Assembly: GCA_015069605.1 (NCBI GenBank) | Contig: SVII01000005.1 | Span: 1-64,000, forward strand | From: Clostridiales bacterium | GTDB lineage: Bacteria; Bacillota; Clostridia; Christensenellales; Borkfalkiaceae | Length of the DNA stretch: 64,000 nucleotides | Direction: 5' to 3' | Shown here: in pieces, positions 48,146 to 63,875 of the stretch | How the letters are laid out: the number at the start of each line of letters is the position of its first letter | Numbering within the stretch: the stretch's first letter is position 1 | Notes under the pieces: model-generated | Seen by the model: only the letters and a program-made list of their open reading frames with translations | The model's database searches: none | What the model was told of the DNA's origin: nothing | Translations under genes and position numbers: made by a program

Positions 48146-49126
48146 ATGTCTAATAACGTACGTCCTGAAACGATGGCGCGTATCACGACGAAAGCGCTTG
48201 CTGATGCGTTCATCGCGGAACAGGTAGCGGCAATTCGTGCGCAAGTGGGTGACAAAAAGGTGTTGCTTGCCCTTTCTGGTGGGGTAGATTCTTCGGTTGT
48301 AGCCGCGCTTTTGATTAAGGCAATCGGCAAGCAGCTTGTTTGTGTACACGTGAATCACGGACTGCTTCGTAAAGGCGAACCTGAACAAGTGGTAGAAGTA
48401 TTCCGCAATCAAATGGACGCAAACCTCGTTTACGTGGATGCGGTGGATCGTTTCCTTGGAAAACTGGAAGGTGTAGAAGAGCCCGAAAAGAAACGTAAGA
48501 TTATCGGTGCGGAATTTATCCGTGTATTTGAAGAAGAAGCGAGAAAATTAGAAGGCATCGAATTTTTGGCGCAAGGTACGATTTATCCCGATATTATCGA
48601 AAGTGATGGGGTAAAAGCGCACCATAACGTAGGCGGCTTGCCCGAAGATATGCAGTTTGAACTCGTAGAGCCTTTAAAACTTTTGTATAAAGACGAAGTG
48701 CGCGCAGTGGGCAGCGCGCTTGGTTTACCCGACGACATGGTATATCGTCAGCCGTTCCCTGGCCCTGGTCTTGGCGTTCGTGTGCTTGGGGAAATCACGA
48801 GAGAGCGTTTGGAAGCGGTGCGTGAATCGGATGCGATTTTACGTGAGGAATTTGCGATTGCAGGGTTGGAAGGCAAGGTATGGCAATATTTCACAGCAGT
48901 GCCTAATTTCAGATCGGTAGGCGTGAAAGACGGCAAGCGTACGTATGCATATCCTGTAATTATTCGTGCTGTGAATACTGTGGACGCAATGTCCGCAACG
49001 ATTGAGGAAATTCCTTATGAAGTGTTGAAAAAAATTACGGCTCGTATTACGACGGAAGTAGAAAACGTCAACCGCGTATTGTACGATTTGACCCCGAAAC
49101 CCTCGGGAACGATTGAATGGGAATAA
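48146..49126 (+). CDS. guaA: GMP synthase, ATP-pyrophosphatase subunit only
   Basis: Aminates XMP to GMP. At 326 residues it holds the PP-ATPase domain (P-loop [16 protein letters not shown]) and the C-terminal dimerisation domain ending in KPSGTIEWE. The usual N-terminal class I glutaminase domain (about 190 residues) is absent, and the 58-base gap before it has no room for it. This matches the two-subunit (archaeal-type) GMP synthase, so a separate glutaminase should be encoded elsewhere, or free ammonia is used. AAAGGAGAG precedes the start. The 3' end is a classic integration site for mobile islands. Confidence 0.93.
49115..49126 (+). repeat. Candidate attachment-site copy at the guaA 3' end
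   Basis: GAATGGGAATAA ends guaA. The same 12 bases recur at 63811-63822 in the same orientation, beyond the accessory region. Confidence 0.45.
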
Positions 49127-52178: not shown

Positions 52179-54449
52179 GTGGAAGATACTTTTTTCAAAA
52201 AAGCCGTGCCGGTTTGGCAAAAGGGAAAGGAAAATCAATTACACGCAAGATGTGTATTTTTTGCAACGTTTGAAGGCGCATCTGATGCAACTTTGACGAT
52301 TGCTGCTAGCAACATATACAGAGTTTTTGTAAACGGAAAAATGGTAGGGGTAGGGCCTGCGCGTTCTGCACACGGTCGTTTTCGTGTGGACGAGTTAGCC
52401 TTGAAAAACTTACAAGAGAAAAACGTGGTTTTCATTGAAGCAGTTGCGTATAACAGCTATAATTATTGCCATTTGTATCAATCGGGCTTCGTTTGCGCAG
52501 AAGTGACGCGAGAGAATACGCCTATCGTGTGGACGGGGAGGGATTTTATCGTTCGCGAATATGTAGAAAAGAAGCAAAAGGTATGCAAATACAGCTATCA
52601 GCGTCCGTTCACGGAAATCTATGATTTTGAACGCCCTCCGCAAGAAACATATCTTGATTTTTCACCGAACGGAGCGGAAGTGGAAAAGGAATATCCCGTA
52701 CAGGTTGAAGACAAACTGTTTGAAGCGCGTAATGTTTCCTATCCGACCTATGAGTTTTTTCTTGCAAAGGAAATGGAAGCTGGTGAGTATTTCGTCGAAA
52801 AGGACTTACCTGAAACGAATCCTTGGATTTTGAAGGAGAGATTGCGTATTTTCCCCAAGCATGAATGGGAGAGCGATAATTATGCGTTTTTACAACGCTT
52901 GACATATCAAAGGAAGGAATTAAACAACGAGATTAAGGAGAATGAATACGTTCTATACAATTTTGATTTCGTACTTACGGGTTTTTTGCGCCTAGAGTGT
53001 ACGGCGCTGGAAGATAGCATAGTGTTGGTATCCTTTGACGAAATCAACCTGAACACGGATGAGAATGGTATTGCGAATATTAGAAGTGACCGTATGGGCT
53101 CGGTCAACGTGATTGAATATCGCTTGAAGGCGGGGCAAAGGTACGCGCATACGACGCTCGAACCGTATACAGCAAAATACATCAAGGTGCACGTAAAAAG
53201 CGGTAAAATCGAAAACGTATCCGTAGGGATGCATACTTATGAAAATCCCAATGCGGAAAGCTTTTGCTTTAAAACTGAAAATGAAAAGCTAAATGCAATT
53301 GTTGAAGCGGCGCGTAGAACTTTCAAACAAAACGCGTTGGATATTCTTACCGACTGCCCTTCAAGAGAGCGCGCTGGCTGGCTTTGTGATTCCTATTTCT
53401 TGGGAAAAGCTGAACAGCTGTTTACAGGGAATAACAAGGTGGAGTGTAATTTCTTAAACAATTACATTCACGCGAAAACGCAAAGTATTCCCGAAGGTAT
53501 GGTTCCCATGTGTTACCCTGCGGATTTTACGGACGGCTCGTATATCCCGAATTGGGCGTTGTTCTATATTATCGAGCAATACGATTATTATATTCGCTGC
53601 AACGACGACGCCATTTTGCAGGAGTCTAAAAACAAGGTACTGGGGATTGTTCAATTTTTCGATAGATACTTAAACGAGCAAGGACTTTTGGAGAATTTGG
53701 AAAATTGGGTGTTCGTCGAATGGAGCAAAGCGAATGATCCCGAATTTACGGCAGGCATCAACTATCCCTCGAATATGCTGTATGCGATGGCGCTCGAGTG
53801 TACGGCGAAAATGTATGGCATTGACGAGTATCAAAAAAGAGCGGATGCAATCAAACAAACGATTCGCAAGGACAGCTTTAACGGAGAATTCTTTGAAGAT
53901 AACCGCATTCGCGAAAACGGCGAATTGGTATTGAAGGGGCATTGTTCGGAAACTTGTCAATATTATGCTTTCTTCACGGGCGTAGCAACCAAGGAAAGCT
54001 ATCCCGAGCTTTACAAAAACCTATTGAAAAACTTTGGGGCAAAACGAAACCAAGAAAAAGTGTATCCGCAAGTGCATAAATCGAATGCGTTTATTGGTAA
54101 CTACTTGCGTTTGATTATGCTGAACGAGAACGGAAGTAAATACAAAATTGCCGAAGAATGTGTGGATTATTTCTATTACATGGCTAAGGCAACGGGAACA
54201 TTGTGGGAAAAGGATGATGTGTATGCAAGTTTGAACCACGGCTTTGCGTCCTACGTTGCGAATTTACTTGTGGATTATTTAACGGGGTATAGAGGCAGAC
54301 ACGGGAAGAAGTTGTTGTTTTCAAAACCTGCAGTCGATATGAATTGTACATTGCGTTTGCCTTTGGAAAACGGATTTTTGTATTTTGAGCGAAAAGACGG
54401 AAAGACGGTGTGCACATATCCTAAAGAATATACAGTGGAAGAATTGTAA
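52179..54449 (+). CDS. GH78-family alpha-L-rhamnosidase
   Basis: A 756-residue cytoplasmic enzyme (no signal peptide). N-terminal beta-sandwich domains (AASNIYRVFVNGKMVGVGPAR) lead to a catalytic alpha/alpha-barrel with DCPSRERAGWLCDS, the GH78 catalytic hallmark (DCPxRxExxGW). Later ENWVFVEWSKAND and YASLNHGFASYVANLL continue the family pattern. Start is GTG at 52179 with GAGG upstream. It would remove rhamnose from imported oligosaccharides. It precedes the GH35 gene by 22 bases, so the two form one unit. Confidence 0.85.
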   Translation: MEDTFFKKAVPVWQKGKENQLHARCVFFATFEGASDATLTIAASNIYRVFVNGKMVGVGPARSAHGRFRVDELALKNLQEKNVVFIEAVAYNSYNYCHLYQSGFVCAEVTRENTPIVWTGRDFIVREYVEKKQKVCKYSYQRPFTEIYDFERPPQETYLDFSPNGAEVEKEYPVQVEDKLFEARNVSYPTYEFFLAKEMEAGEYFVEKDLPETNPWILKERLRIFPKHEWESDNYAFLQRLTYQRKELNNEIKENEYVLYNFDFVLTGFLRLECTALEDSIVLVSFDEINLNTDENGIANIRSDRMGSVNVIEYRLKAGQRYAHTTLEPYTAKYIKVHVKSGKIENVSVGMHTYENPNAESFCFKTENEKLNAIVEAARRTFKQNALDILTDCPSRERAGWLCDSYFLGKAEQLFTGNNKVECNFLNNYIHAKTQSIPEGMVPMCYPADFTDGSYIPNWALFYIIEQYDYYIRCNDDAILQESKNKVLGIVQFFDRYLNEQGLLENLENWVFVEWSKANDPEFTAGINYPSNMLYAMALECTAKMYGIDEYQKRADAIKQTIRKDSFNGEFFEDNRIRENGELVLKGHCSETCQYYAFFTGVATKESYPELYKNLLKNFGAKRNQEKVYPQVHKSNAFIGNYLRLIMLNENGSKYKIAEECVDYFYYMAKATGTLWEKDDVYASLNHGFASYVANLLVDYLTGYRGRHGKKLLFSKPAVDMNCTLRLPLENGFLYFERKDGKTVCTYPKEYTVEEL

Positions 54450-54471
54450 GTATTAAAAAGGGAGAATGGTT

Positions 54472-56535
54472 ATGATAACCTATAACGATTTATATTATGT
54501 AAAAGATGGCAAACCTTGGTTTCCAATTTCTGGGGAATACCAGTATTCGCGTGCGGATGTGAGATATTGGAAAGAAGGCATCGCAAAAATGAAAGCGCAA
54601 GGGATTGACGTAGTGGCAAGCTACGCATTTTGGTTGCACCATGAAGAAATTAAGGGGCATTTTGATTTCCGCGGGAATCGAAATTTAAGAAAATTTTTAC
54701 GCGAAATTAAAGAAGCGGGGATGTTAATGTGCTTGCGAATCGGCCCTTGGGTACACGCAGAAGCAAGAAACGGCGGCTTCCCCGATTGGATTTACGAAGA
54801 AAATTGTAAGACGAGATCAAACGATCCCGTTTATATGTCCTACGTGGAAAGATACTTCAAGGAACTGTATAAACAATGCGACGGGTATATGTATTCGCAG
54901 GGCGGTCCTATTTACGCTATTCAGGTAGAAAATGAATACAGTCAGTGGGGCGTACAAGGGGAAGATATTAGCGATAATCACATCAACGCACTTATCAAGA
55001 TGCTGAAAGAGATTGGATTTGACGTACCCGTGTATTGCGCTACGGGCTGGGGGAAGGCAGCCATTGGGGATGCGATTGCCGTTTGGGGCGCATACGTGGA
55101 ACAGCCTTGGGACAGAACGATTGGGGAATTGCCCCCTTTGCAACCATTCTTGTTCTCCCCGAATCCAAACGATGAAAATATCGGCAGCGAAGCAGGGAAA
55201 ATTGCTATGGATGCCGATATAGGCAAGATGAGATTCCCGTATTCTACGGTAGAAATTAGCGGCGGTGGACAAGTAACCGATCATAGAAGACCGATCCTTG
55301 GCGGAACGGAGCATGGCGCTGTTACGATGTGCCGTTTGGGCAGTGAAGCGTCTACCATAGGTTATTATGTATTCCACGGTGGTATGAACCCCATCGGCGC
55401 GTTGACCACGATGCAGGAATATTATAGAGAAGGACCGCTTGTGCCTGGATTTTGTAGCGACTTGTTGGAAATCAACTACGATTTCCAAGCCCCGATCAGT
55501 CAGTATTCCAAGGTTCGTGAAAAGGCGGGGGAATTCAAATTGTGCAACTACTTTGCCCGTGAATTTGGCGTAGAGCAAATGCGCGTTAAATTTTTTGAGG
55601 ATAGCCCAAGTGATCCTACCGACCTTGTAAGCTTGCGTTATTCAATGCGTTCAAAGGGCAATCAAGGATTCTTGTTTATCAATAACTACGTTCGCCATTA
55701 TGACTTGCCTTGCAGGGATTATAAAGATTTCAAGGTTGCGTTAGAGAGCGAAACGATTACAATTCCTTCCATCCATTTGGAGAATAAAGAATATTGCGCG
55801 TATCCCTTGAATATGCCTATCGGGAACGCGGTGTTGAAATACGCAACGGCTACGCCTTTCTGCACGTTGAACGGAAAGGACTACGTGTTTTGGTCGAAAG
55901 ACGGGAAGGCGGATTATCAAATCGAAGGCGCATTTGACGGCAAAATTATCCTTTTGAAAAAGGAAGAAGCGTTAAAGGCATACAAATTTAACTATCAAGG
56001 CAAAGAGCGTATCTTTATTGCGGACGGCGAGCTGTATCAAACGGAAGACGGCTTGCACCTCAACACGTTTGAAAAGCCGATGATGAAAATATATCCTGCT
56101 TTGGAAGAAGAGGTTGCTGGTCTGGAGAAGATAGGCGAAGAGGGGGATTTAGGTATCTATACCGCTCCCTTCCAAGCAGAGGAATGGGCAGCAGAGGTAG
56201 TTGGCGTCAAAGATTGCGGTAAATACGTAGATTATGAAATAGCCGTCAAATACAGTGTAGGCAAAAAGGAAAACGGTTTCCTGTATATTGACTTCGATGG
56301 TGATACTTTGGAATTGTTGATTGACGGCGAAAAGGTAAACGATCATTATTATTTGGGCGTGGATTTTGAAGTAGGGCTTCGTTATTACGATTTCCCGAAA
56401 ATGGTTTGCGCAAGAATTTATCCTTTGGATGAGAATAAAACGGTGTATCTGCAAAAAATCCCCGTATTCAAGGACGGAAAAGCCGTTGGTATCAACAAGG
56501 TTTATGCGAAAAAAGAAACCCGTTATCTTTTCTAA
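54472..56535 (+). CDS. GH35-like beta-galactosidase
   Basis: A 687-residue cytoplasmic protein. The N-terminal TIM barrel has GEYQYSRADVRYWKEGIAKMKAQGID, RIGPWVHAEARNGGFPDW and IQVENEYSQWG, where the NEY glutamate is the family acid/base. A likely nucleophile region is VEISGGGQVTD. C-terminal beta domains follow. GH35 enzymes remove terminal beta-galactose, for example from galactan side chains of pectin. Start: ATG 54472 has GGGAG at proper spacing; the ATG at 54466 is too close to it. Its end overlaps an inverted repeat. Confidence 0.85.
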   Translation: MITYNDLYYVKDGKPWFPISGEYQYSRADVRYWKEGIAKMKAQGIDVVASYAFWLHHEEIKGHFDFRGNRNLRKFLREIKEAGMLMCLRIGPWVHAEARNGGFPDWIYEENCKTRSNDPVYMSYVERYFKELYKQCDGYMYSQGGPIYAIQVENEYSQWGVQGEDISDNHINALIKMLKEIGFDVPVYCATGWGKAAIGDAIAVWGAYVEQPWDRTIGELPPLQPFLFSPNPNDENIGSEAGKIAMDADIGKMRFPYSTVEISGGGQVTDHRRPILGGTEHGAVTMCRLGSEASTIGYYVFHGGMNPIGALTTMQEYYREGPLVPGFCSDLLEINYDFQAPISQYSKVREKAGEFKLCNYFAREFGVEQMRVKFFEDSPSDPTDLVSLRYSMRSKGNQGFLFINNYVRHYDLPCRDYKDFKVALESETITIPSIHLENKEYCAYPLNMPIGNAVLKYATATPFCTLNGKDYVFWSKDGKADYQIEGAFDGKIILLKKEEALKAYKFNYQGKERIFIADGELYQTEDGLHLNTFEKPMMKIYPALEEEVAGLEKIGEEGDLGIYTAPFQAEEWAAEVVGVKDCGKYVDYEIAVKYSVGKKENGFLYIDFDGDTLELLIDGEKVNDHYYLGVDFEVGLRYYDFPKMVCARIYPLDENKTVYLQKIPVFKDGKAVGINKVYAKKETRYLF

Positions 56536-56544
56536 GATAACGGG
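56519..56544. terminator. Hairpin at the GH35 gene end
   Basis: CCCGTTATCTT-TTCT-AAGATAACGGG is a perfect 11-bp inverted repeat spanning the stop codon. The U tract is weak, but it separates convergent genes. Confidence 0.65.
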
Positions 56545-56580
56545 CGTAAGCCGTTAGGTTTGATTTTTTAAGAAGGGATA

Positions 56581-57423
56581 TTAACTATTCAATTGAACCT
56601 TTTGCCATTCTTTTGGCGACATATTGTAGATTTCCTTAAAGGCGTTGCAGTACGCGCTTTGAGAACTGTAATTTAATCGCATTGCAATCTCAAGAATGGA
56701 AACCTTGGGGTCGAGCAAGAGCAGGGTGGAATAGATGATACGGCTTTCGTTTAAGCATTGCACCATCGTTTTTCCCGTGTGCTTCTTAAATTCTCGGCAG
56801 AGGTAGGCGTGGCTGTAATTAAATTCTTTCGTAATTGCTTCAACACTTTGGCAAAGGCAGGATTCGCTTTTCAATTTTGTAAAAAAGGAATTTATCCATG
56901 CCGGATAGGTTGTTTTTTGCAGGAATTTCTTAAAATAAATAGATAAAATTTGGAAAACAACGGAAGTATGTATTTTCTCTAAAACCTCAATGTCGTTTTT
57001 GAGATAAGTGCTATAATTTTTAAAAACCTTTAAAGAATGTTCCCAGGTTTCCAAATATTCCTGTTTTCCGTCTAGAATGATAAAGTCTTTTTTCAAAAGC
57101 TCTTTATATAAGGTGGGAGATAAAAAGTCACAGCAACGTTTCATTTTTTCCGGGGTAACGTAAATATCTCGATGAAAGGTGGGGGAAGTGTTTAAAGAAT
57201 CTTCATCTTTTGTGATTCTATGCGTATCCTTGGGCTTTATAAGAAGAATTTCAGACAACGCGTGCGTTTTTATAGGCTGGTCGTTAACCCAATGGGTAAT
57301 TTCGCCGTCTATGCAATAGGTGATTTCCCAAAAAGAGTGAAGATGATGCTCAATATTTCGGTTTAATAATTTGGAAGTGTAAAAGTTTTGTTGGATAGTT
57401 TTCTCATTGTAAATTTCTATCAT
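56581..57423 (-). CDS. AraC family transcriptional regulator
   Basis: A 280-residue regulator. The N-terminal cupin-like sensing domain (HHLHSFWEITYCIDGEI, LLIKPKDTH) is followed by a C-terminal double helix-turn-helix (about 185-280) with FNYSHAYLCREFKKHTGKT and NYSSQSAYCNAFKEIYNMSPKEW. It is divergent from the transporter operon and convergent with the GH genes, so it probably controls the sugar-utilisation genes around it in response to a sugar. The effector is unknown. Confidence 0.92.
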   Translation of the reverse strand: MIEIYNEKTIQQNFYTSKLLNRNIEHHLHSFWEITYCIDGEITHWVNDQPIKTHALSEILLIKPKDTHRITKDEDSLNTSPTFHRDIYVTPEKMKRCCDFLSPTLYKELLKKDFIILDGKQEYLETWEHSLKVFKNYSTYLKNDIEVLEKIHTSVVFQILSIYFKKFLQKTTYPAWINSFFTKLKSESCLCQSVEAITKEFNYSHAYLCREFKKHTGKTMVQCLNESRIIYSTLLLLDPKVSILEIAMRLNYSSQSAYCNAFKEIYNMSPKEWQKVQLNS

Positions 57424-57674
57424 TTTCTTTTTCCCCTTTTGTTTTCACGTATAGTATAACGCATCTTTCCAGAAAAAACAAGGTTTTTTACAGGTATGTC
57501 AAAAATTTGCAAAAGTTGGTAAAGTATTTATATAGACTGGAAGAAGAAACTTATGGTATATTATATTTATAGTAGGAATATGAAACGTGGAAAAAATATA
57601 AAAAATCATTTTTTACCGTTAGAATGAAAGTTAAAAAAATAACTTTTTACAACACTTTGGAGGCATTAGAGTCT

Positions 57675-58637
57675 ATGCGGTTGAAAAAATTAATAAGTTA
57701 TATCCTTTTGACAATATGGTTGCCGATATTATGTTTATCCTTGTGTGGATTTACTGCGAGTGGTGACGTCAACGTAAAGCACAGCGGAAAAGGCGAAGCG
57801 ACTTTTTTTGTGAATAGCGCGCTTGAAGAAGCTGAATTCCGAAAGGAAATAGAAGAAGTAGTTAAAGACTTGAATGCGGCTTCTATCAGCAACGATGGAA
57901 GTAACGATATGGTAAACCTAAAAGGCATTGAAGAAGAAAATGGGATTTACAAGGTCAACGTTGCTTTTCGTAGAATCGACAAGGTGGATCCTCGCGGGAT
58001 TATTTATTTGTATAAAGCTGAAAGCTTGAAAGTGGAGCAAAGCGAAGAATGGAAACGTTTGGAACGTTGGGAACGCGGGGACATTAATTGCACGTCTACG
58101 ATATTTTATAATCAACTGCCTGGGTTGGTTCAAATTAAAAAGACAAGAGAAGGTGGCCCTAATCTTGTAATCAAACCAAGGTCTATCACGGGAAAGGCAT
58201 TATCTGTTAAGAATTTTGCGGAGCAGATTTCGAAAAAAAATCAAATTTTATCCTTTCAGCTTTTAGATACGCTGGGGGTGGAAAAAATACAAATCACCCT
58301 TCCAGGAGAAATTACCTATTACGGCGATAATATAAAGATAATAGATAAATCTACCTTTGAAATAACGTCGACGACTGTTCCAGCGCAAGTAACAAGAAAC
58401 AGTGCGGAAAGCTACGAATCGATAGTAACGAATGAAGAAATCAAAATTTTTGTAGGATATGTGGCGTTCCAAAAGAGTATGAGCCCATTTGCAATCGCTG
58501 CACTTACCATTGTGGGTGTGTTGGTTGTTGGTTTGGTTGCGTGCGCCCTTAATTATTTCTATCAAAGAGGGAAAGGGCTACAAGCCTTGGAAGAAGCGAA
58601 AAAGGAGTTGGAAAATGAAAGAGAATGCATTGAATAA
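57675..58637 (+). CDS. Signal-bearing, C-terminally anchored membrane protein of unknown function
   Basis: A 320-residue protein with an N-terminal signal (RLKKLISYILLTIWLPILCLSLCGF), a large extracellular beta-rich domain and one C-terminal span (IAALTIVGVLVVGLVACALNYFY) followed by a short charged tail. ATG 57675 has GGAGG 11 bases upstream, while the track start at 57624 has none. It overlaps the permease gene by 23 bases. I do not recognise the family. Position suggests a partner of the ABC importer, but it lacks the features of a solute-binding lipoprotein. Confidence 0.7.
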   Translation: MRLKKLISYILLTIWLPILCLSLCGFTASGDVNVKHSGKGEATFFVNSALEEAEFRKEIEEVVKDLNAASISNDGSNDMVNLKGIEEENGIYKVNVAFRRIDKVDPRGIIYLYKAESLKVEQSEEWKRLERWERGDINCTSTIFYNQLPGLVQIKKTREGGPNLVIKPRSITGKALSVKNFAEQISKKNQILSFQLLDTLGVEKIQITLPGEITYYGDNIKIIDKSTFEITSTTVPAQVTRNSAESYESIVTNEEIKIFVGYVAFQKSMSPFAIAALTIVGVLVVGLVACALNYFYQRGKGLQALEEAKKELENERECIE

Positions 58638-59610
58638 GAAGAAAGTTCCAACGAAGAGAGCTTTAATTTCTAAAGGCTTTAAGGACTTTTACCAAGGCCC
58701 TACGTTGCGGGGGATTAGAAAACACAAGTTTTTGTATTTGTTAACCTTGCCTGCGATAATTTCCTTATTAGTATTTTCCTACGCTCCGATGTTTGGTGTT
58801 ATTATTGCCTTTCAAGATTACATAAGCGTGGAAGGTGTGCTGGGTAGCGAGTTTGTTGGTTTTAAAAATTTCTACAATATACTGTTTAATCCAACGATGG
58901 TTTCGTATCGAGAAATTAGAAATACGGTGTATATTTCCATCATAAGAATTGCAACCAACTTCCCGATTATTTTAATTTTCACATTGATGGTGAATGAAAT
59001 CAAATGTAAACAAGCGAAGGGCTTGGTGCAGGCGATTTCCTATATTCCCTATTATATCTCGTGGATTTCGGTTGGCGGCATGGCCTATAACTTATTCAAG
59101 CTCGACGGCGGTATTTTTAATCAGGTAATCGTTATGTTCGGCGGACAGCCCTTTGACTGGTACACCAAGGTGGATTATTGGTGGTGGATACTTTCCGCAT
59201 CTTCCTTGTGGAAAGGGATGGGGTGGTCAACTCTTATCTATTTATCCGCGTTGAGCGCCATTGACTTGGAATTGTACGAGGCTTGCGAAATCGACGGCGG
59301 CGGAAGATTGAGGAAGATGATTTCGGTAACCATACCAGGGATTATGAACGTAATCATGATTCAGTTGATTTTGGACATTGCCAGCGTTTTGTCGGATAAC
59401 TACGACCAGATTATGGCAATGACGAACCGTGCGGATGCCCTTTCGGAAACAACGAAGGTAATCGGTGCAATTGAATTCAATGCAGTAAGTGGTAGTAGCG
59501 GACAATCAACGGCAACAGCTTACGGTTTATTAAGAGGGTTAATCGGTTTGGTCTTGGTTCTTGTCACGAATAAGATCGCAAAAAGTTCTGGAAACGAGGG
59601 GATTATGTGA
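58615..59610 (+). CDS. Carbohydrate ABC transporter permease (LplB/YteP type)
   Basis: A 331-residue integral membrane protein with about six spans. After a basic N-terminus comes LYLLTLPAIISLLVFSYAPMFGVIIAFQDY, typical of the LplB/YteP subfamily that imports complex oligosaccharides. The coupling EAA motif is present as LYEACEIDGGGRLRKMISVTIPGI. The start at 58615 follows AAGGAG inside the preceding gene; the track start at 58489 is wrong. It overlaps the second permease by 4 bases. In B. subtilis the YteP-type systems import rhamnogalacturonan oligosaccharides, which fits the GH set here. Confidence 0.92.
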   Translation: MKENALNKKKVPTKRALISKGFKDFYQGPTLRGIRKHKFLYLLTLPAIISLLVFSYAPMFGVIIAFQDYISVEGVLGSEFVGFKNFYNILFNPTMVSYREIRNTVYISIIRIATNFPIILIFTLMVNEIKCKQAKGLVQAISYIPYYISWISVGGMAYNLFKLDGGIFNQVIVMFGGQPFDWYTKVDYWWWILSASSLWKGMGWSTLIYLSALSAIDLELYEACEIDGGGRLRKMISVTIPGIMNVIMIQLILDIASVLSDNYDQIMAMTNRADALSETTKVIGAIEFNAVSGSSGQSTATAYGLLRGLIGLVLVLVTNKIAKSSGNEGIM

Positions 59611-60050
59611 TGAAAATAAAAAAGATTCGTGTTTTTGATGTGGCACTTGCCGTTGTTATGGCATTGCTTTCCCTGATTTTCCTGCTTCCTTTTTGGATTA
59701 TTGTGGTGTCTTCGTTAAGTGATAACTTACAGTTGATGACCAATGGGATTTCAGTATGGTTTCAAGGCTTTACCTTTGCGGGATATCGGTTGTTGTTCGG
59801 CTTGAGCGATAAATTTATTCGTTCGATTTGGGTATCGTTGTATACATCTTTCTTGGCGGCAATTTTATCCGTTGTAGCTTGTAGTCTTTGTGCATACGCT
59901 TTATCTAAAAAATATTTAGTGGGAAGAAATGTAATCACAGTTTTCGTCCTGATCCCGATGTTCTTTAGTGGCGGTATGATGCCGTTGTATTTGGTTAAAG
60001 TGTAACGGAAGAGATGGGTTTTGGGCGTGCTTGGGCGATAATTCCGATTC
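59607..60050 (+). pseudogene. Truncated second ABC permease (YtcP/CarB type)
   Basis: The gene opens normally (LSLIFLLPFWIIVVSSLSDN, then SIWVSLYTSFLAAILSVVACSLCAYALS) and stops at 60003, after 132 residues, where the family needs about 290. Just past the stop another frame reads VTEEMGFGRAWAIIP, which looks like the next piece of the same family (YLVV-x-MG-x-x-x-x-WAIILP). Then the similarity ends near 60045. So there is a frameshift plus loss of the second half, including the EAA coupling loop. The importer should not work as encoded. A sequencing or assembly error cannot be excluded. Confidence 0.75.
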
Positions 60051-61416
60051 CAAAGAATACGAAAAAACGTACATTGAAACATACGTTGTGGATACGGATA
60101 AGCCATTCGTGATGAAAAGCCGAAATCGTATTCTTGTTTGGCACTGTGAGACTAGAGAAAATTCCTACAATCTGCCTGCATACTACCCTGTAATGCACTA
60201 TTCAGACGATGGTAAAACGTGGCATACTGTGCATTTAGGCGAAGCTCCTTATTTTGAAGTGAAGTGGCCTCACAAGGGCTATCGCTGGCAACAAAATAAC
60301 CGTGAACTGACGGTTATTGAAAAGGAAGACGGAACGTTGCAATGCGTTTCCCGTACTTCGATGGACGTTTTCTATACGGCAACCTCAACGGACGGCGGGG
60401 AAACGTGGTCGGAATTTACCCCGACAACCTTCAATGGCACGGGTACTTTTCCTTGTATGCAAAAGTTGAGCGACGGTAGGATTCTTTTTGCGTTTTGTAA
60501 CACTCGCCCGTTACCTGAATTAAAGGGCGCGGACGGCGTTTGGGAGGACGTTTTTACCAACCGTGACGCCTCGCATTTAGCAATCAGTGAGGACGATGGC
60601 AAGACGTGGAAAGGTTTCCGCGAGCTTCGCTTGAATCCGTTAAGACACAATGCGGATTTCCGTACTATCGGGGAAAATTGCACGTTTGATAAAAGTGTTC
60701 ATCAATTTGAAATGATGGAATTGCCCTTTAATAAAGCCTTGATTGTCAGCGGTCAGCATAAGGTTTGCCGTAATATTATGATTGTAGATTTGGCGTGGCT
60801 GTACGAGACGGAGTGCGAAGAGAAGTTTTTAAACGGTTTTTCAGGTTTATCCACGCAAGGCTACGTAAAAAGTATCGTAGGCGGATGGAAGGGGACTGGA
60901 ACGGTTGGGCATTGTGCCTACAATCGTTTGCCGAGTGCATTGTTGCTTCCAAGCCCTGAAAACAACGGAAAAGAAGCGTTGCATCTTGCCCCGCTTGAGG
61001 ACAAGCGGATGCAGAGCGGTTACAGCGGTGCTGTGTGGAACTTCCCTGCAAGCCGAAAGGGTATCATTACCCTGCGTGCGTACTTGCCTGGAAAGGGCTT
61101 GAGGGTTTCCTTATTCGATTATTGGATAAATCCCACGGATGATACCGTACCGTATTTTGCGCCCTTCTCTATCGTGTTGCGTAGGGATATGCAAACGGAT
61201 GAGTTGTTCACCGACTTTCAAATTGAGTTCGATTGCGATCAAAAGAAGGTCAGCGTGAGCGCAGGGGAATACTTCCATTTGACATTCCCGTTGAATGGAG
61301 AGCTTCCGAATGGCTTGTATTATTTGCATATGCAATCGGCTGTTGCTGAAAACGATAGTGATGGCAGTTACGTTTCTTATTTAGGTTTTAAAAGTTTGGA
61401 CAAAGGAAAGGTGTGA
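60031..61416 (+). pseudogene. Sialidase-like (BNR/Asp-box) gene, probably 5'-truncated
   Basis: The open frame codes for up to 461 residues with Asp-box repeats (SDDGKTWH, STDGGETWSEF, SEDDGKTWKGF), the mark of six-bladed sialidase-type propellers. The nominal start (TTG 60031) has no ribosome-binding site and lies at the deletion junction; the first in-frame ATG at 60112 also lacks one. The start of the propeller seems to be lost, so I call it a remnant, although fused translation is possible. Substrate unknown: Asp-box enzymes include sialidases and other exo-glycosidases. It ends one base before the aldolase start codon. Confidence 0.6.
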
Positions 61417-61417
61417 A

Positions 61418-62065
61418 ATGAGAGAAGAAATTTTGCAAACAATAGAAAAAGAAAAAATAATTGTTATCGTTCGCGGGGTGGAGAGAGAGAAACTCATTCC
61501 CTTGGCAGAAGCGATGTATGCAGGCGGTATTCGCCTTTTAGAAGTGACGTATAGCGCAAACGGCAAGGTTTTCGATGAAGATACCGCCGAGAATATCCGT
61601 ATGCTTGCCGAATGTTTTAAAGGTAGAATGTTCGTTGGGGCTGGTACGGTTTTAACGGAAAAACAGGTGGAACTTACGGCGCAGGCTGGAGGCAAATTTA
61701 TCATTTCACCTGATACCTGCCCCCCTGTAATTCAAAAAACAAGGGAGTTGGGATTGATTTCGATGCCGGGTGCGTTGACGCCTACGGAGATACAAGCGGC
61801 GCATAGAGCGGGTGCGGATTTTGTAAAGCTGTTTCCGATTACAAGCTTCGGTACAGGCTACGTGAAGGCGGTAAAAGCTCCGTTGTCCCATATCAAGTTT
61901 TTGGCGGTCGGCGGTGTCGATGAAAACAATATGCCAGATTATTTGAAAGCGGGTGTTTCGGGCTTTGGCGTAGGCTCGAACATTATTGATAAGAAAATGC
62001 TGGAAACAGGCGATTGGTCGGGCATTACCGCGCTTGCGGAAAAATACGTAAATGCGTTAAAATAA
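61418..62065 (+). CDS. eda: KDPG/KHG aldolase
   Basis: A 215-residue class I aldolase that splits 2-keto-3-deoxy-6-phosphogluconate into pyruvate and glyceraldehyde-3-phosphate. The active-site features are VIVRGVE, the Glu in LLEVTYS, GAGTVLT, and the Schiff-base lysine in ADFVKLFP. SISPD..CPP and GVGSNI complete the barrel. With KdgK immediately downstream it forms the end of uronate catabolism. The start ATG is one base past the sialidase-like stop. Confidence 0.94.
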   Translation: MREEILQTIEKEKIIVIVRGVEREKLIPLAEAMYAGGIRLLEVTYSANGKVFDEDTAENIRMLAECFKGRMFVGAGTVLTEKQVELTAQAGGKFIISPDTCPPVIQKTRELGLISMPGALTPTEIQAAHRAGADFVKLFPITSFGTGYVKAVKAPLSHIKFLAVGGVDENNMPDYLKAGVSGFGVGSNIIDKKMLETGDWSGITALAEKYVNALK

Positions 62066-62078
62066 GGAGAAGAAAAGC

Positions 62079-63101
62079 ATGAAGAAAGTAGTAACGTTTG
62101 GAGAATTAATGTTAAGATTATCCCCTGAAGGATATTTGCGTTTTGGGCAAAGTGAAAAATATGTGGCGACCTTTGGCGGCGCGGAAGCAAACGTAGCAGT
62201 ATCGCTTGCAAATTATGGTATAGATGCGGCATTTGTTACCAAATTGCCCAAGCATGAAATTGGACAGACAGTTGTCAACTCGTTGCGTAAATTCGGCGTT
62301 GATACATCCAAGATTGTTCGCGGCGGCGATAGAGTGGGTATCTTCTATTGCGAAAAGGGCGCAAGCCAACGCCCCAGCAAGGTTATATATGATAGAGCTT
62401 ATAGCGCGATTGCAATGGCGCAAAAGGAAGATTTTGATTGGGATAAAATTTTTGAGAGTGTAGAATGGTTTCATTTTACGGGAATTACCCCTGCTCTTTC
62501 CGACAGCGTAGCGGAAATTTGTGAAATTGCTTGTCAAAAGGCAAAGGAAAAGGGTATTACGATTTCCTGTGATTTGAACTACCGCAATAAGCTTTGGACA
62601 AAGGAAAAAGCAGGACAGGTAATGGGCAAGCTTTGTAAGTACGTCGATTACTGTATCGCAAACGAAGAAGATGCAAAGGACGTGTTCGGTATTGAAGCGG
62701 ATAATTCGGATATTTACGGCGGTAAGCTTGACCGTGACGGATACATTTCCGTGGCGAAAAAATTGACGGATAGATTTGGTTTTAAGGGTGTGGCTGTTAC
62801 TTTGCGTGAAAGCAAGACGGCAAACGACAACGATTGGTCGGGTATGCTTTATACGGAAAATCAAGCGTATTTTAGCAAGAAATACAGAGTGCATATCGTT
62901 GATAGAGTAGGCGGTGGTGACAGCTTTGGCGGCGGTTTGATTTACAGCCTTTTGAGCGGGAAGGATTCGCAGTCTGCTATTGAGTTTGCAGTAGCCGCAA
63001 GCTGCTTGAAACATTCGATTGAAGGGGACTACAATATGGTTTCCGTGGACGAAGTGAACAAGCTTGCAGGCGGCGACGGCAGCGGCAGAGTACAAAGATA
63101 A
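62079..63101 (+). CDS. kdgK: 2-dehydro-3-deoxygluconokinase (PfkB family)
   Basis: A 340-residue PfkB-fold kinase. It starts VVTFGELMLRLSPEGYLRFGQ, has the substrate loop FGGAEANVAVSLA and ends the active site with RVGGGDSFGGGLIY, where the Asp is the catalytic base. The combination is typical of KdgK. It phosphorylates KDG for the aldolase upstream (13-base gap). KDG arises from galacturonate and glucuronate, as in pectin breakdown, but no uronate isomerase or reductase is in the window. Confidence 0.92.
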   Translation: MKKVVTFGELMLRLSPEGYLRFGQSEKYVATFGGAEANVAVSLANYGIDAAFVTKLPKHEIGQTVVNSLRKFGVDTSKIVRGGDRVGIFYCEKGASQRPSKVIYDRAYSAIAMAQKEDFDWDKIFESVEWFHFTGITPALSDSVAEICEIACQKAKEKGITISCDLNYRNKLWTKEKAGQVMGKLCKYVDYCIANEEDAKDVFGIEADNSDIYGGKLDRDGYISVAKKLTDRFGFKGVAVTLRESKTANDNDWSGMLYTENQAYFSKKYRVHIVDRVGGGDSFGGGLIYSLLSGKDSQSAIEFAVAASCLKHSIEGDYNMVSVDEVNKLAGGDGSGRVQR

Positions 63102-63142: not shown

Positions 63143-63808
63143 ATGAAAATATTATTTTTTGGCGATTCTATTACGGATATGGGGCGAAACCGTGACACGG
63201 ACGGACGAGCTTTCGGGTACGGGGTTGGTTACGTAAATAGCGTGGCGAGTACGCTCACATACGAAAATCCTGAACAGTATGAAATTATTAATCGCGGTAT
63301 CGGTGGGCATAGAATTGTTGATTTGTATGCTCGCATCAAGGCGGACGTTTGGAATCATAACCCGGATTTGATTAGTATTCTTATTGGAATCAACGACGTT
63401 TGGCACGAAATTTACGGCGGAAACGGCGTAGACTTGAAACGTTTTGAAAGAGTGTATCGTATGCTGATTGAAGATACGAAAGAACAACTTCCTAACGTGA
63501 AGTTTATTCTTTGTGAACCGTTTGTTTTGAAAGGGTCCGCAACGGAAGAAAGATTTGAAGAATTCTTAGAAGTAAAGAAGTACGCGGCTGTTGTCAAGAA
63601 ACTTGCGGAAGAATACGGAATTCCTTTTGTTGCATTGCAGGAAAAATTTAATGAAGTGGCGGCGAAGTATAGTGCGGTACACTATTTGTACGATGGTGTA
63701 CATCCTGACGTCGCTGGAGGTAAATTGATTGCAGAGGAGTGGTTAAAAGTGTTCCGCGCAGAGATAGAAAATAGCTTGGAAAAAGGGTTAAAAAAGTTTG
63801 CAGTTTAA
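63143..63808 (+). CDS. SGNH/GDSL esterase (carbohydrate acetylesterase-like)
   Basis: A 221-residue SGNH hydrolase. Block I is FFGDSITDMG (Ser nucleophile), block II has the glycine in NRGIGGH, block III is IGINDVW (Asn) and block V DGVHPDVAG (Asp-x-x-His). No signal peptide, so cytoplasmic. Relatives deacetylate rhamnogalacturonan or xylan oligosaccharides, which suits the neighbourhood. Start at 63143 after GAGAGGA; the track's 63128 start is upstream of this site. Confidence 0.88.
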   Translation: MKILFFGDSITDMGRNRDTDGRAFGYGVGYVNSVASTLTYENPEQYEIINRGIGGHRIVDLYARIKADVWNHNPDLISILIGINDVWHEIYGGNGVDLKRFERVYRMLIEDTKEQLPNVKFILCEPFVLKGSATEERFEEFLEVKKYAAVVKKLAEEYGIPFVALQEKFNEVAAKYSAVHYLYDGVHPDVAGGKLIAEEWLKVFRAEIENSLEKGLKKFAV

Positions 63809-63836: not shown

Positions 63837-63875
63837 CTCTCTCATTGGAATATTTCCAGTGAGAGAGCTTTTTTT
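63837..63875 (+). terminator. Terminator at the end of the accessory region
   Basis: CTCTCTCATTGG pairs with CCAGTGAGAGAG (one G-U), followed by a T run. It separates the SGNH gene from the convergent DUF4097-like gene. Confidence 0.85.

Follow-up and report, generated by a model that had tools for sequence, protein, structure and literature searches.

The window, by which we mean the whole 64,000-nucleotide stretch of DNA analysed here, sits on a contig of 78,849 bases (C30) in a draft, metagenome-style assembly of 1.34 Mb, which comprises 35 contigs and is 84% complete. The genes of the junction locus are, in order, a rhamnosidase-like gene, a GH35 gene, an AraC-type regulator, an ORF at 57624-58637, permease 1, a permease 2 ORF, an Asp-box ORF, KDPG aldolase, KDG kinase and a GDSL hydrolase, and all of them lie on the plus strand save the divergent AraC-type regulator. 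In the assembly, two of these genes have each lost an end and what remains of them is joined. The features are the following.

48146..49126, plus strand: guaA-like gene, left flank of the island (88-94% identity in most congeners, 76% in one)
57624..58637, plus strand: intact gene preceding permease 1, an ORF whose product looks membrane-anchored by eye
58615..59610, plus strand: permease 1, LplB/UgpA-type CUT1, intact, 331 aa (PF00528; ~60% identity to G165 and G180)
59607..60005, plus strand: permease 2, YtcP/UgpE-type, 5' half only (132 codons; homology stops at ~59,999)
59996..60100, plus strand: breakpoint interval, from the end of the permease profile to the onset of clear gain in the GH181 profile
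60031..61416, plus strand: GH181-type sialidase, probable remnant (PDB matches 8axs, 8axt, 8axi and 8hls, E ~3e-61)
61418..62065, plus strand: KDPG/KHG aldolase, intact (PF01081; TIGR01182 above cut-off)
62079..63101, plus strand: KDG kinase, PfkB family, intact (Pfam/NCBIfam matches)
63143..63808, plus strand: GDSL/SGNH hydrolase, intact (PF13472), the final gene before a hairpin

The terminator-like hairpin 3' of the GDSL hydrolase gene spans 63837-63867 and is followed by a T run. A second KDG kinase copy, with 84% identity to the gene listed here, was found on contig C20. Searches of Pfam and NCBIfam gave no match for the product of the 57624-58637 ORF; its homologues (20-32% identity) lie directly 5' of permease 1 in most relatives examined, and throughout the bacterial family the gene consistently accompanies permeases of this type. 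The placement of a GH181-type gene directly 5' of KDPG aldolase and KDG kinase (60031-63101) makes for an unusual neighbourhood, and one may speculate that the substrate is not sialic acid but another 2-keto-3-deoxy sugar acid.

The earlier note had described permease 2 as cut short after 132 residues, with its second half and the solute-binding-protein gene missing, and comparison with relatives bore this out. The ORF has 132 codons, whereas relatives with the same cassette encode at least 264-300 aa. Residues 5-130 are 62% identical to a 291-aa orthologue, and the last permease-homologous residues are LYLVK at ~59,999; 131-132 residues are retained. This end is reached before the family's EAA/DGA coupling loop, and the membrane domain is not full-length. 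In two genomes of a sister genus with the same gene order (G165 and G180), permease 2 is complete (~291 aa) and the order runs rhamnosidase, GH35, AraC, ORF, permease 1, permease 2, binding protein (~554 aa), small membrane protein and beta-helix protein. Other cassettes in the bacterial family also have a longer permease 2; the binding-protein gene comes next in most of them, and a different gene or the contig end in some. In the window, unlike in G165 and G180, neither the second permease half nor the binding-protein gene follows permease 2. No binding-protein orthologue was detected in the window's own, 84% complete assembly, and the CUT1 permease thus lacks its associated binding-protein gene there, while the same query matched G165, G180, G002 and G005. 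A search of the same assembly for the missing permease 2 half gave only weak matches, all to other, intact permeases.

The downstream ORF, which ends in the stop at 61416, is the interior of an Asp-box gene and lacks a proper start, as the earlier note had also proposed, and we found no convincing ribosome-binding site for it by eye. Its single open frame exceeds 430 codons. Identity is 56% to a full-length protein of 581 aa from a different Clostridia genome (L024) and ~40% to others. Full-length relatives are ~570-640 aa long, and ~125-160 of their residues precede the start of the window copy; these residues are present in 12/12 aligned full-length relatives and absent from the window copy. 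The N-terminal part was not found elsewhere in the 84% complete assembly, and the search matched two control genomes. Up to 16% of the genome may lie outside the searches for missing parts, and absence elsewhere is therefore no proof of loss. The active site of AmGH181 is reported to comprise E218, R234, R305, D345, H349, Q350 and Q367 (PMC10067855, PMC12018670), and an alignment read by hand showed that 7/7 of these residues are kept in the remnant (NRE, SRTS, TNRD, DKSVHQ and GQHK). The six-bladed propeller catalytic domain of the window copy is incomplete; because the absent N-terminal part belongs to this propeller, a working fold is not expected, and judged from its sequence the ORF is probably a remnant of the family and not a working member.

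The alternative that both short ORFs are functional, one encoding a membrane protein of 132 aa and the other a shortened GH181 enzyme translated from an internal start codon, draws on the open frames and on the complete set of GH181 active-site residues, but it is highly improbable given that the permease matches listed in other genomes have open frames of at least 209 aa versus 143 here, that the GH181 copy lacks the N-terminal residues common to all aligned relatives, and that inspection by eye showed no convincing ribosome-binding site.

On the GH181 side, homology becomes clear at ~60,100, and the scores do not resolve it between 60,005 and 60,100. From the permease end at ~59,999 and the GH181 signal from ~60,100, we therefore set the breakpoint at ~59,996-60,100. 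The earlier note had explained the locus by one deletion plus a nearby frameshift, on the grounds that 15 residues in a shifted frame (VTEEMGFGRAWAIIP) continue the permease with family-like sequence. The truncation of two genes at a single junction stands, and the frameshift does not. With a profile built from 16 family permeases, the score was 147.9 bits without VTEEMGFGRAWAIIP and 149.4 bits with it (+1.5 bits); 192/500 shuffles of the peptide scored as well or better, as did 367/1000 random peptides from the window. Real tails from 25 family members outside the profile gave 155-180 bits, and every one of them (25/25) exceeded the 149.4 bits of the VTEEMGFGRAWAIIP construct. The resemblance is thus within chance, and a frameshift pseudogene, in which family sequence would resume in another frame, is not supported in view of the shuffles and real-tail controls. 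Permease homology ends at ~59,999, one junction accounts for the whole observation, and an additional frameshift need not be invoked.

The surroundings of the junction bear on whether two unrelated loci were brought together. In 13 congeners, 0.6-4.0 kb separate the guaA-like gene from the YihY/BrkB-like gene, and this interval varies in length and content. Here the guaA-like gene (left) and the YihY-like gene (right) are separated by 17.3 kb, and a ~15-kb island between them holds both gene halves. Since both halves are found within one insertion between conserved flanks, a join of two distant loci is unlikely. An assembly chimera, the rival named in the earlier note, is accordingly made unlikely in its long-range version by the conservation of these flanks in 13 congeners; a local misassembly inside the island has to be weighed separately.

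The tetranucleotide distance between 56-60 kb and the right side is 0.292, and adjacent blocks of the contig differ by at most 0.251. This composition step fits a horizontal origin, but it would also fit a local misjoin. Within the contig, tetranucleotide composition is most atypical in the AraC-ORF-permease stretch (54001-60000), which is likewise consistent with a horizontal origin, and GC at 56-60 kb is 0.387 versus 0.432 for the contig. The PadR-DUF1700-like operon that lies between the guaA-like and YihY-like genes (C30 63885-65791, at the window end and in L078) is on the minus strand here and on the plus strand in L228 (G395) and L232 (G019). From this strand switch, we infer that an inversion of the operon accompanied or followed the arrival of the island.

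In a local misassembly, an internal stretch of the island would have been skipped or misjoined and the genes of the organism would be intact. The draft, multi-contig nature of the assembly, the change of composition at the junction and the undecayed look of both remnants all speak for such an artefact, but no repeat of at least 16 nt with a further copy inside the island lies at the junction, the missing parts were not found on other contigs and the flanks are consistent, and we regard this explanation as unlikely. We give about the same low weight to the possibility that two separately acquired gene sets were fused at an insertion hot spot, with no deletion between neighbours. The variable guaA-YihY interval, the atypical composition of the left set and the fact that relatives carry the GH181 gene and the cassette at separate loci would suit such a fusion; against it, no mobile element was seen at the junction or in the island, no tRNA that could serve as an insertion site lies within 45-64 kb, and a deletion is the simpler event. 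This fusion is hard to tell from the explanation that we prefer and is partly contained in it; recombination inside the island between two gene sets would produce the same junction.

The explanation that we prefer, and consider likely, is that a carbohydrate-use island recently underwent a deletion, or a recombination with the same effect, which truncated both genes and joined them, leaving non-functional remnants; the junction is probably real and a case of ordinary gene decay. Permease 2 would have lost its 3' half in this event, and the solute-binding-protein gene would have gone as well, probably together with further genes of the cassette, including the small membrane-protein gene (judged from the order in G165). 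The same event would have taken the first ~125-160 codons of the GH181-type gene and joined the leftovers. The transporter would then be inactive, with a permease 2 devoid of its coupling loop and with no binding protein, and so would the glycosidase, with its incomplete propeller and no start signal. Permease 1 is left intact, as are the three downstream genes (KDPG aldolase, KDG kinase and GDSL hydrolase), and these intact genes are predicted to be transcribed from the upstream promoter as a result of the fusion. That the GH181 remnant is still one open frame with all active-site residues suggests that the event was recent, and it would also fit an artefact. No searched relative has the permease cassette beside the GH181 gene, which counts against the account of one simple deletion between adjacent operons.

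A separate junction was observed in the same ORF-permease 1-permease 2 cassette of a congener (G005), at ~7994-9100 of L072 (G005:C11). There, ~240 residues into permease 2, the sequence changes to that of a LacZ-type beta-galactosidase, represented by its last ~95 codons and read in another frame (PF02929, E 8e-22), and no binding-protein gene follows the permease 2-LacZ junction. A binding-protein gene near the end of contig C3 of G005 was considered as the lost continuation of permease 2 and was rejected, as a different, unrelated gene lies upstream of it and there is no overlap. The large gene 3' of the cassette in G002 is not the counterpart of the LacZ gene of G005 either; it encodes a GH3 protein. 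Two junctions in one cassette of one genus are suggestive of repeated loss, and both come from draft assemblies; that deletions recur at this cassette across the genus seems quite doubtful. If this were true, the transporter would have been lost repeatedly, perhaps under selection, in the course of genome reduction or of variation between strains. For annotation, inferences on the sugar use of this genome should treat neither gene half as a functional transporter or sialidase. The locus also illustrates cleanly how a long-range assembly chimera can be told from a genuine rearrangement with the help of conserved flanks.

Compared with known systems, the locus resembles CUT1 pairs of the LplB-YtcP or UgpA-UgpE type in its intact permease 1, in the match of permease 2 up to residue ~130 and in the gene order of its relatives, and it differs from such pairs and their binding protein in having only the first half of permease 2 and no binding-protein gene. 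With AmGH181 (Amuc_1547) of Akkermansia muciniphila (8axi, 8axs, 8axt and 8hls), the window copy shares a significant sequence match and all seven active-site residues, and it differs in having no start signal and in the loss of roughly 125-160 N-terminal residues that belong to the catalytic propeller. With deletion-fused pseudogenes of bacterial carbohydrate loci in general, the case in the window has in common two half genes, one breakpoint and intact neighbours; it is known from one draft assembly, with the breakpoint placed on assembled sequence.
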